Source: an uncultured SAR86 cluster bacterium
GTDB lineage: Bacteria; Pseudomonadota; Gammaproteobacteria; Magnimaribacterales; D2472
DNA length: 64,000 bases
Direction of reading: 5' to 3'
Assembly: GCA_902516285.1 (NCBI GenBank)
Contig: CABXXT010000002.1
Span: 62,001-126,000 of the forward strand
Below are positions 37,585 through 40,559 of the stretch, in pieces. The translations under genes and the position numbers were made by a program. The notes beneath the pieces were generated by a model that saw nothing but the letters and a program-made list of their open reading frames with translations, did no database searches and was not told the DNA's origin. Each line of letters starts with the position of its first letter. Position 1 is the stretch's first letter.

Positions 37585-39738
37585 TTAAAAGTTATTAGCA
37601 ACTGAGGACATTTCAAAGTCTAATTTTTCTTTCCGATCTTCTTTTTTTGGTGCTTCACCTAATTTTTCTCCATTTTTTGCTAATTTAATAAGCAGTTCAC
37701 TTGGATTATAGGCATCATTACCGGTAATTTCCTTATATTTATTTAGCTTTTCTAAAACTTTATCTAATCCTATTGCATTAGCATGGTGCATTGGACCACC
37801 TCTCCATATAGGGAAACCATAACCATTAATGTAGACAACATCTATATCGGCGGCTCTTTGTGCCACTCCCTCTGATAATATATCTGCTCCTTCGTTAATT
37901 AATGCTAATGTACATCTATCAATAATTTCTTCATCTGATATTTCTCTTCGTGTAAAACCATTTTCAGAAGAGATTTTTTCATAAATAGCTTCATTTTCAG
38001 GAGCTGGATTTGGTGCTCTAGATCCTTCTGAATAATTATAGTAGCCAGCTGAACTTTTTTGTCCGTACCTATCTTGTTCACATAATTCGTCACCAATCTT
38101 AGCGTGTAATGGAGATTCTTTTCCACCAAGTTTTCTAGCTCTCCATCCCAAGTCCAAACCAACTAAGTCCATCATCCTAAATGGACCCATGTTTAATCCA
38201 AAAGATTCTAAAGCTTGATCAATTTGATGGGGAAGGGCGCCTTCTAAAAGTAACATATTAGCTTGAGCTGTATATCTAAATAACATTCTGTTTCCTATAA
38301 AACCCGGAGCATTTAAAGAAACAACCGCAGCCTTCTTAAGCTTTTTACCAATAGCCATTACTGTTGCTAGAGTTTCATCAGATGTTTGTGCTCCTCTAAC
38401 TACTTCCAATAATCTCATAATATTAGCGGGACTAAAAAAGTGAGTACCTACTACTAGTTCAGGCCTATTTGTTACTGACGCAATCGAATCTATATCCAAT
38501 CCAGAAGTATTACTAGCAAGTATCGCTCCTTCTTTTACATGTTCATCGAGAGACTTAAAAATCTTATGTTTTAACTCTAGATTTTCATATACAGCCTCTA
38601 TAACAATATCGCAATCTGATAGATCTTTATAATCCAAACTTGAGGAAATCAACCCAAACACTTTATCTTTTTGTTCAGCAGTTAATTTTCCTCTGTTAAC
38701 CATAAAGTCATAATTTTTTTCAATAACTGAAAGTCCTCTTTTGATGTTTTCCTCATCCTGATCAATTATGTGAACTGGAATACCCGCATTTGCAAAACAC
38801 ATTGATATTCCTCCACCCATCGTACCGGAACCAATAATTCCAGCTTTTTTAATATCCATTATTTTTGTTTCTTTCGGCAGATCTGAAATTTTAGATGCTG
38901 CTCTTTCACCAAAGAAAATATGTATCATTGCCTCTCTTTGCGGATGCATTAAGCACTCAAGAAAGTATTCACCTTCTTTCTTTAATCCTTCGTCAAAATC
39001 ATCAATATTTATTGCAGATTCAACACATTTAATTATTTGTCCTGGTGCAAATTGTCCTTTTCTTGTTTTAGCTGCCATTGCCTGAGCTTCCAACAATATG
39101 TTATCGTTTCCTCTTGCATCGATAACTTTTTCATTGAGATCTCTAACTTTTGGATGATGTTCAGTGTTTTTTGATACTTCTTTTATAAATTCTATAGAAT
39201 CATCAACAACATTCTCCGAAATTTTGTCAATAATTCCCATATCTAAAGCTTTTTTAGCTGATATATGAATGCCTGAAAGCATCATTTTCAGTGCTTCAGC
39301 AGGTCCGGCTAGCCTTGGAAGTCTTTGAGTTCCGCCACCACCAGGCAAAAGGCCTAAATTTACCTCAGGTAAGCCAACAATTGCGTTAGAATCAGCTATT
39401 CTATAATTACAACATAATGCTGTTTCTAAACCTCCACCTAGCGCAAGACCATTCATTGCTGCAACTACTGGTTTAGTGCAGAACTCAAGCTTTTCAAACA
39501 TTTCATTTAATGTTTTTCCTTCAATTTGACCACCAAATTCAGATATATCTGCACCTGCTATAAATGCTCTTCCATTTCCAGTAAGAACAATACCTATGAC
39601 TGAATCATCTTCCTGTGCTTTTATGATGTTTTCATAAACTCCTGTTCTAATACCATCACTTAATGGATTCACTGGCGGGTTATCAACAGTAAGTATCGCA
39701 ATATTTTCCTTTACTTCGTATAAAACTGTACCTTTCAA
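37585..39738 (-). CDS. Bifunctional enoyl-CoA hydratase / 3-hydroxyacyl-CoA dehydrogenase
   Basis: The 717-residue protein fuses an N-terminal crotonase domain (AAMNGLALGGGLETALCCNY, GLPEVNLGLLPGGGGTQRLP) to a dehydrogenase with the NAD-binding GSGTMGGGISMCFANAGIPV and a C-terminal 3HCDH pair. It would carry out the hydration and NAD-dependent oxidation steps of beta-oxidation. The layout resembles FadJ or peroxisomal bifunctional enzymes more than FadB. No thiolase gene is adjacent, so a fadAB pairing is not supported. Confidence 0.93.
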   Translation of the reverse strand: MKGTVLYEVKENIAILTVDNPPVNPLSDGIRTGVYENIIKAQEDDSVIGIVLTGNGRAFIAGADISEFGGQIEGKTLNEMFEKLEFCTKPVVAAMNGLALGGGLETALCCNYRIADSNAIVGLPEVNLGLLPGGGGTQRLPRLAGPAEALKMMLSGIHISAKKALDMGIIDKISENVVDDSIEFIKEVSKNTEHHPKVRDLNEKVIDARGNDNILLEAQAMAAKTRKGQFAPGQIIKCVESAINIDDFDEGLKKEGEYFLECLMHPQREAMIHIFFGERAASKISDLPKETKIMDIKKAGIIGSGTMGGGISMCFANAGIPVHIIDQDEENIKRGLSVIEKNYDFMVNRGKLTAEQKDKVFGLISSSLDYKDLSDCDIVIEAVYENLELKHKIFKSLDEHVKEGAILASNTSGLDIDSIASVTNRPELVVGTHFFSPANIMRLLEVVRGAQTSDETLATVMAIGKKLKKAAVVSLNAPGFIGNRMLFRYTAQANMLLLEGALPHQIDQALESFGLNMGPFRMMDLVGLDLGWRARKLGGKESPLHAKIGDELCEQDRYGQKSSAGYYNYSEGSRAPNPAPENEAIYEKISSENGFTRREISDEEIIDRCTLALINEGADILSEGVAQRAADIDVVYINGYGFPIWRGGPMHHANAIGLDKVLEKLNKYKEITGNDAYNPSELLIKLAKNGEKLGEAPKKEDRKEKLDFEMSSVANNF

Positions 39739-39809
39739 AGCATTTCTCCGTTATTTATAATTCGAAATTCATTATACATAAAAAAATTATAATTATTTTA
39801 TAAATTATA

Positions 39810-39837
39810 TTGATAATTAATTATAAATATATATAAT
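39810..39837 (+). promoter_or_regulatory. Predicted strong sigma-70 promoter
   Basis: TTGATA (39810-39815) and TATAAT (39832-39837) are separated by 16 bases on the plus strand, close to the consensus. The expected start of transcription near 39844 falls at the first base of a stem-loop, ahead of a 28-codon ORF and the peroxidase gene. Chance matches are frequent in AT-rich DNA, but this one is near-consensus and well placed. Confidence 0.6.
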
Positions 39838-39844
39838 AGTACTA

Positions 39845-39915
39845 GTCAGCACTCCTCTCCCCTATTAAATATACTGCTGACACTCTGGAAAATATGGAGG
39901 GTTAACACCCTCCAT
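39845..39915 (+). promoter_or_regulatory. Structured leader with two stem-loops
   Basis: The first stem pairs GTCAGCA (39845-39851) with TGCTGAC (39875-39881) around a pyrimidine-rich loop (CTCCTCTCCCC then A/T). The second is a perfect 9-bp stem, ATGGAGGGT-TAAC-ACCCTCCAT (39894-39915). They lie between the predicted promoter and a small ORF with its own ribosome site. The second stem lacks a following T-run, so termination is not obvious. The element could be a cis-regulatory leader or the 5' part of a small RNA. It matches no family I can name. Confidence 0.5.
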
Positions 39916-39932
39916 CTCTTAAAAAGGTTATT

Positions 39933-40019
39933 ATGAACACATTTAAAAATAGTTTCGAAGTACTCTTTTTAATATCTGTTTTCGTAATTTCACTTTCTGC
40001 AATTACCCCAGTTAGTTAA
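39933..40019 (+). CDS. Candidate 28-residue membrane peptide
   Basis: This ORF, too short for the track, starts with ATG at 39933, with AAAAAGG six bases upstream. It encodes a peptide starting MNTFKNSFEVLFLISVFVIS and ending SAITPVS. A charged or polar N-terminus followed by about 17 hydrophobic residues suggests a single membrane helix or a bare signal peptide. Promoter, leader hairpins and ribosome site support expression. It may be a small membrane protein or a leader peptide for the peroxidase gene, whose ATG lies 15 bases downstream. No family is recognised. Confidence 0.45.
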   Translation: MNTFKNSFEVLFLISVFVISLSAITPVS

Positions 40020-40034
40020 GTTATAATAGCATCC

Positions 40035-40559
40035 ATGAAAAAATTTCTATTTTGCTCGCTTTTTTTGTTTACTGGTCACACTATTGCTTGTTCAGATTTA
40101 CTTAATACAAACATGAGAATTTTAGATACTGTAGATGAAGTTAACTTATGTGAATATGAAGATAAAGTAGTTTTAATTGTTAATGTTGCAAGTAGATGTG
40201 GTTATACATATCAATATGCATCCCTTCAATCATTGTATGAAAAGTATCGTGAAGAAGGATTTGTAATCTTAGGAGTTCCTTCAAGAGATTTCATGCAAGA
40301 ATATTCAGATGAATCTGACGTAGCTGAGTTTTGCTCAACAGAGTATGGTGTAAATTTTCCTATGTTTGCGACATCGAAAGTAAGAGGCAAAAAAGCCAGC
40401 CTTTTATATAAGAAGTTATATGCTGCAAGCGGGCAATATCCCTCATGGAATTTCAATAAGTATTTATTATCCAAAGATGGCAAATTTGTCTCATCATTTG
40501 GTTCCTCAGTGAAGCCAGACTCAGATGAGCTTATTAATGAAATAGAAAAACTTTTATAA
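40035..40559 (+). CDS. Exported glutathione-peroxidase-family thiol peroxidase
   Basis: The 174-residue protein has a signal peptide (about 1-19, ending TIACS) and the GPx motif VNVASRCGYT with a cysteine rather than selenocysteine. Tryptophan and asparagine of the active site are in WNFNKYLLSKDG. The usual FPCNQF stretch reads VPSRDF, so the common resolving cysteine is missing. It should reduce peroxides in the periplasm. A TATAAT ending eight bases before the ATG could give a leaderless or near-leaderless transcript in addition to the upstream promoter. Confidence 0.87.
   Translation: MKKFLFCSLFLFTGHTIACSDLLNTNMRILDTVDEVNLCEYEDKVVLIVNVASRCGYTYQYASLQSLYEKYREEGFVILGVPSRDFMQEYSDESDVAEFCSTEYGVNFPMFATSKVRGKKASLLYKKLYAASGQYPSWNFNKYLLSKDGKFVSSFGSSVKPDSDELINEIEKLL

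Follow-up and report, generated by a model that had tools for sequence, protein, structure and literature searches.

The closest described systems are a handful of structured bacterial RNAs. sX13 of Xanthomonas is a trans-encoded, Hfq-independent RNA; it is 115 nt long, has three hairpins, displays C-rich loops and represses mRNAs that carry G-rich motifs near their start codons (PMC3771888). The NfeR1/alpha-r14 and "cuckoo" CcsR RNAs of alphaproteobacteria keep a conserved anti-Shine-Dalgarno motif unpaired while their stems vary (PMC10746234, PMC10253847); the CcsR RNAs are co-transcribed with a small protein gene and act in stress defence (PMC10253847). UpsM of Rhodobacter is a small RNA generated by termination in a 5′ leader, with rare read-through into the genes that follow; a leader ORF has been noted there (PMC5089854). 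Finally, the Downstream-peptide motif RNA (RF01704) of marine cyanobacteria is a riboswitch candidate related to the glnA motif (PMC2864571).

Here, we describe an RNA family and a microprotein family found in the window, the whole 64,000-nucleotide stretch of DNA that was analysed, which comes from a SAR86 cluster genome of 1.08 Mb (81% complete). SAR86 bacteria are among the most abundant in the surface ocean and are largely uncultured. Both families are real and conserved, and neither is annotated in the libraries searched; their sequences suggest the functions discussed below. Nothing relevant to SAR86 small RNAs was found in the literature searched, which lay mostly outside subscription papers; earlier metatranscriptome listings are possible.

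Layout and conservation of the locus

An earlier note, made from the letters of the DNA, had described a promoter, two hairpins and a short ORF in a 296-nt gap before a peroxidase gene. Direct reading of the sequence finds each of these elements where the note had placed them (Table 1), and the gap, from the start of the divergent gene at 39738 to the peroxidase ATG at 40035, has the claimed length. The boundaries given there (39810 to 40034) enclose DNA that is indeed conserved, but they are too narrow: the conserved unit extends from about 39790, at a conserved block 5′ of the dyad, to 40559, the end of the peroxidase gene. The block itself, CATTATACATAAAAAAA, occupies positions 39766-39790, 5′ of the promoter; its opposite strand has a -10-like TATAAT, which probably belongs to the promoter of the divergent gene (start 39738). 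The downstream gene encodes a glutathione peroxidase (GPx; Pfam GSHPx, E 2.6e-27, 95 bits against a cut-off of 27), and GPx sits 3′ of the linked RNA copies that were checked. The short ORF ends 15 nt before its ATG.

Table 1. Features of the promoter, RNA, microprotein and peroxidase unit. Coordinates are those of the window; stand-alone copies are given by locus.
Feature	Position	Strand	Details
Divergent fatty-acid oxidation gene	37585-39738	-	Left neighbour of the leader
Conserved imperfect dyad (aTTGATAATTAATTATAAat), putative operator	39806-39831	.	Overlaps the -35 element and spacer
Sigma-70-type promoter, TTGATA-16-TATAAT	39810-39837	+	TTGATA 39810-39815, 16-nt spacer, TATAAT 39832-39837
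Two-hairpin RNA, putative trans-acting small RNA and leader	39844-39926	+	Covariance-model match, 83 bits, E 7e-20
Hairpin H1, 7 bp, 23-nt loop with CUCCUCUCCCC	39845-39881	+	Arms GTCAGCA 39845-39851 / TGCTGAC 39875-39881
C/U-rich loop motif, putative anti-Shine-Dalgarno seed	39852-39864	+	Column conservation; pairing with the metK start region
Conserved linker, consensus UCUGGAAU	39884-39890	+	Alignments of peptide-linked copies
Hairpin H2, 9 bp, TAAC loop, terminator-like	39894-39915	+	Arms ATGGAGGGT 39894-39902 / ACCCTCCAT 39907-39915
Gene for a 28-aa single-helix membrane microprotein	39933-40019	+	ORF translation, conservation
Glutathione peroxidase with N-terminal signal/lipoprotein-like sequence	40035-40559	+	Pfam GSHPx
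Stand-alone copies of the RNA	L051, L058, L112, L113, L115, L119, L143, L145, L146, L147		Genera g2, g3, g12

An alignment of 34 leaders shows conservation in three blocks, namely promoter plus spacer, RNA and ORF. Promoter-like sites are not significant alone in this AT-rich region (5 observed, 6.0 +/- 2.5 in shuffles), so that the promoter match by itself is at chance level, but the conservation led us to accept the locus as real. Judged by sequence, the unit of promoter, H1, H2 and ORF is real, lies far above chance and is kept in two families of the SAR86 order.

A conserved two-hairpin RNA with a fixed loop

Transcription is predicted to start at 39843-39845, and the distance from the -10 element to H1 is mostly 6-7 nt in relatives. 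The loop of H1, preceded by the stem end, reads CTCCTCTCCCCTATTAAATATAC. The 84-nt RNA folds more stably than shuffled versions (z = -4.6, 0/200), and RNAalifold recovers the same two helices. Among 65 aligned members, 97.5% of cells are paired, as compared with 34-48% in slid-register controls, and 67 cells show double changes against 8.6 in shuffles (0/500); this alignment is biased towards the structure of the model, and a plain MAFFT alignment (A1) agrees in direction. Double changes affect all seven pairs of H1 (97.9% paired) and six of the seven modelled pairs of H2. Stems take the forms GUCAGCA/UGCUGAC, UAUCAACA/UGUUGAUA, CAUCGGCA/UGCCGAUA, UACCAACA/UGUUGGUA and AACUAGC/GCUAGUU, while the loop CUYCUCYCCCC stays near-invariant across the 65 sequences.

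A DNA search gave matches in 36 of 60 relatives, nearly all from the genus itself or from the two further genera of its family included in the set; the few distant matches are chance. With the covariance model R1, the RNA was detected in 165/199 genomes of the order at E <= 0.1, with strong scores throughout the window's family (f1) and clear ones in family f4. Presence in the SAR86 families f2 and f3 was not accepted, only weak R1/R2 matches being found there (in f2, all at E of at least 0.001). The f3 matches that were read lie on the strand opposite the start of a conserved ORF of 29 codons, which has the Shine-Dalgarno sequence (SD) GGGGAGAG. This ORF, MLTGHKDYVFPYFLGERFLDLGFLKKFLT (L137-L139 and L141), starts inside a hairpin that mimics the RNA model from the opposite strand. 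Similarly, weak matches elsewhere in the class were, where inspected, ordinary intrinsic terminators or similar, and were not accepted. In Rfam 15 (4227 models), positions 39600-40200 of the window gave three weak matches, none above its gathering threshold, and in five diverse relatives only tRNA passed the threshold.

Only the linked f1 copies keep the linker UCUGGAAU; stand-alone copies and family f4 lack it, so that it may have an extra role in cis. No pairing partner for it was found by eye (window 39882-39893 and the aligned linkers). No co-variation indicative of a pseudoknot between the H1 loop and an H2 arm was seen, in a test that is weak with two such highly conserved elements.

The microprotein

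An ATG ORF of 25-33 codons lies 3′ of H2 in 54/54 linked copies of the set. Within the genus, pN is 0.150 and pS is 0.663. In 20 diverse members, an invariant E, L and F (E-x3-L-x3-F) form one face of a helix and the C-terminus is a near-invariant I..P. We read the product, to which no Pfam or NCBIfam model corresponds, as a single-pass membrane microprotein, and infer that it may take part in a redox or envelope complex. In several f4 loci (L056, L131, L134 and L132), the RNA and the microprotein are separated by another small ORF (MKEYMNNLFSFCKEYPVWAAVFFSFGYLIGEIYVV and relatives).

These results bear on the two interpretations offered in the earlier note, which had looked to stem covariation and a coding signal in relatives for a decision, and to a lack of conservation of stems or ORF as grounds for giving the locus up. 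Stems and ORF are both conserved. Both stems covary (double changes in 13/14 pairs), and purifying selection acts on the ORF (pN/pS 0.226), third codon positions being the least conserved (identity 0.79/0.91/0.51 at positions 1/2/3). None of the GPx-linked copies examined lacks the ORF. The reading as a dedicated gene for a small protein, preceded by a regulatory leader, is thus supported. We find nothing in favour of a leader-peptide switch for the peroxidase: selection acts on the amino-acid sequence up to the C-terminal AI.P. The note had not seen that H1-H2 also occurs alone, or that the dyad promoter is shared with a pseudoazurin gene.

Stand-alone copies and the behaviour of H2

Ten copies consist of H1, a linker, H2 and a U-rich tail, without the ORF and without GPx (Table 1). 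They lie near an exonuclease I gene in convergent orientation, and most of them retain the same promoter. In L143 and L146 the dyad is lost, while the -10-like sequence, the stems and the loop are retained; the H1 stem has changed to AACUAGC/GCUAGUU around an unchanged loop. Promoter and terminator are both present by sequence in L051, L112, L113, L119, L145 and L146. One g12 genome holds a third copy of the RNA (L116, G173:C10), followed by a truncated peptide ORF like that of the window's genus; it is possibly a pseudogene, a transfer or contamination.

The window's own copy is joined to the downstream operon; its H2 is followed by a weak U-tract, and no terminator was called there. In family f4, a textbook intrinsic terminator (GGGGCUUCGGCCCC..UUUUUU) precedes the ORF. 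By sequence, H2 resembles a terminator, and its tail is weaker in copies with genes downstream: the T content of the first 8 nt after H2 is 68% in linked copies versus 80% in stand-alone ones. The occurrence of H1-H2 alone, without the ORF or GPx, is our chief reason for favouring a small RNA that acts in trans over an element that works purely as a leader in cis. Most likely, the unit is an independent trans-acting RNA and not just a leader.

A small set of dyad promoters

The dyad aligns in all GPx-linked leaders and matches itself on the minus strand. A strict pattern for promoter and spacer, TTGATAWNNNNWTATAANNNNNNATAAT, was found in 32/32 genus genomes, with one or two sites each, and in 58/61 family genomes; the reversed pattern, used as a control, gave 0 in both sets. 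The second site within the genus lies, where it was read, upstream of a pseudoazurin gene (TIGR02375, 132 bits). These sites fall near 1290-1590 in L052, L053, L054, L055 and L151, and in several genomes the gene begins 5-10 nt after the -10 box, so that its mRNA would be leaderless. The dyad promoter also precedes etfB in genus g15 and membrane proteins of about 60 aa (..NDYFIGMKFDPLVMFVVIPAVIQ..) in genera g12 and g16 (loci L225, L226, L230; L112, L113, L119, L236). As the same promoter drives pseudoazurin and, in one genus, etfB, the shared signal is probably redox or oxidative.

Apart from one extra base at its centre, the dyad is similar to a Fur box. Fur or PerR as its regulator is not supported, given that the strict pattern has one or two sites per genus genome and that the second belongs to pseudoazurin and not to iron genes. 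Fur-family genes were found in 53/60 relatives; none was found in the window's own genome, which is 81% complete.

Hfq and candidate targets

Hfq was not found in 60 genomes of the order, 23 of them at least 90% complete, and control genomes were positive. Any action of the RNA must therefore be Hfq-independent. The loop CUYCUCYCCCC complements purine-rich SDs, which makes its pairing in trans plausible. Among 52 ortholog groups, metK gives the best loop pairing, with a mean of -14.5 and a worst value of -11.1 kcal/mol (mean of all groups, -4.3); its SD region is GGGAGA[GA] in 14/14 genomes, but its pairing against composition-shuffled loops has a z of only -1.9. This ranking is partial, as the groups were drawn from the window and from limited syntenic stretches in as many as 13 relatives, which cover about 6% of the genome. 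The exact sequence GGGGAGAG near start codons pointed to no recurrent gene across the genus, with counts close to the reversed control, and at the starts of 57 window genes the mean loop pairing was not better than for shuffled loops. On sequence grounds, metK is a candidate target and nothing more.

Discussion

Our main reading extends to transcription, termination and read-through, trans pairing, the signal and the role of the peptide, all of which we infer. A strong promoter with an operator-like dyad would make an RNA of about 80 nt, whose C-rich H1 loop (CUYCUCYCCCC) would pair with purine-rich ribosome-binding sites of other mRNAs and block their translation without Hfq. H2 would act as a leaky terminator, ending many transcripts and so yielding the small RNA, and the transcripts that read through would reach the 28-aa single-helix membrane protein and the exported GPx, which would be made under the same signal. 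The conserved structure and loop, the coding peptide, the stand-alone copies, the shared dyad promoter and the failure to detect Hfq lend this reading its support, and we give it a probability of roughly 60%.

The strongest competitor is a cis-acting attenuator, in which H1 and H2 control termination or translation of the microprotein-GPx operon only, as a ligand, temperature or protein sensor, with the H1 loop pairing to the GGAGGG arm of H2 as the proposed switch. H1/H2 do lie between promoter and ORF in all GPx-linked copies, the loop's CUCUCC can pair with GGAGGG, and the confinement of UCUGGAAU to peptide-linked f1 copies suggests some role in cis. However, the stand-alone copies keep stem pairing and loop with no gene downstream, which a purely cis element would not need; there is no multi-stem aptamer, and the loop and H2 arm do not co-vary, though the high conservation of both makes this a weak test. 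We consider an attenuator unlikely as the whole explanation. It is more improbable still that H1 is a 5′ stabiliser or a binding site for a protein such as a cold-shock protein, S1 or Rho, and that H2 simply terminates. Such a site would fit the position of H1, which begins within a few nucleotides of the predicted 5′ end, and C-rich single-stranded RNA is the type of ligand that Rho and S1 bind; a stabiliser would not need a near-invariant 11-nt loop beside a freely changing stem.

Type I toxins are small membrane peptides with a single helix, and the 28-aa product resembles them in size and form; on this reading, the leader would be its control element. Against this stand the strong purifying selection, the fact that every linked locus examined has the peptide in its GPx operon, and the invariant E-x3-L-x3-F helix face, as in an interacting subunit, and we regard a toxin as very improbable. 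A last alternative is that only the promoter is real, the hairpins being due to chance and the short ORF spurious. Promoter-like sites do occur often in the AT-rich DNA here, but conservation speaks against this explanation and the covariation and coding tests refute it; we attach next to no weight to it.

Beyond the Hfq-independent small RNA with read-through, a broader picture is possible, and we hold it only tentatively: an anti-Shine-Dalgarno RNA specific to SAR86 might tie redox state to the translation of core metabolism (e.g., metK, for S-adenosylmethionine synthesis), and be co-transcribed with a 28-aa membrane subunit or adaptor of a redox complex. Such an RNA would be a type of post-transcriptional regulator so far undescribed in this abundant marine lineage. 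SAR86 genomes are small and Hfq was undetected in them, and a conserved RNA with a fixed loop, in leader and stand-alone forms, offers a testable case of small-RNA regulation. An unannotated family of membrane microproteins and a small set of dyad promoters that points to redox control are gained as well.

Comparison with known systems

Like sX13, the SAR86 RNA is gammaproteobacterial and highly structured with a C-rich apical loop (PMC3771888), and it shares with that class a C-rich single-stranded loop on a stable, conserved stem. It has two hairpins and one C-rich loop where sX13 has three hairpins, and is mostly joined to a microprotein and GPx. The alphaproteobacterial NfeR1 and CcsR RNAs belong to another class of bacteria. 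Their motif is CCUCCUCCC (alpha-r14/CcsR), whereas the SAR86 loop is CUYCUCYCCCC in 65 sequences and lacks that motif; alpha-r14 has three hairpins and CcsR is associated with a DUF1127 RNA-binding protein, in contrast to two hairpins, without an Rfam match, 5′ of a 28-aa single-helix membrane peptide without a Pfam match. UpsM is similar in the leader termination and read-through that we propose, H2 being terminator-like by sequence, but it precedes the mraZ/dcw genes and has another structure, and no stand-alone copies of it are mentioned in the text consulted. The Downstream-peptide motif is likewise a structured leader before a conserved short ORF in marine bacteria; it differs in sequence and fold, and the SAR86 RNA matches no Rfam model. 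By motif, number of hairpins, partner gene and Rfam score, the SAR86 RNA thus appears to stand outside the named families, and we propose that its mode of action resembles theirs.
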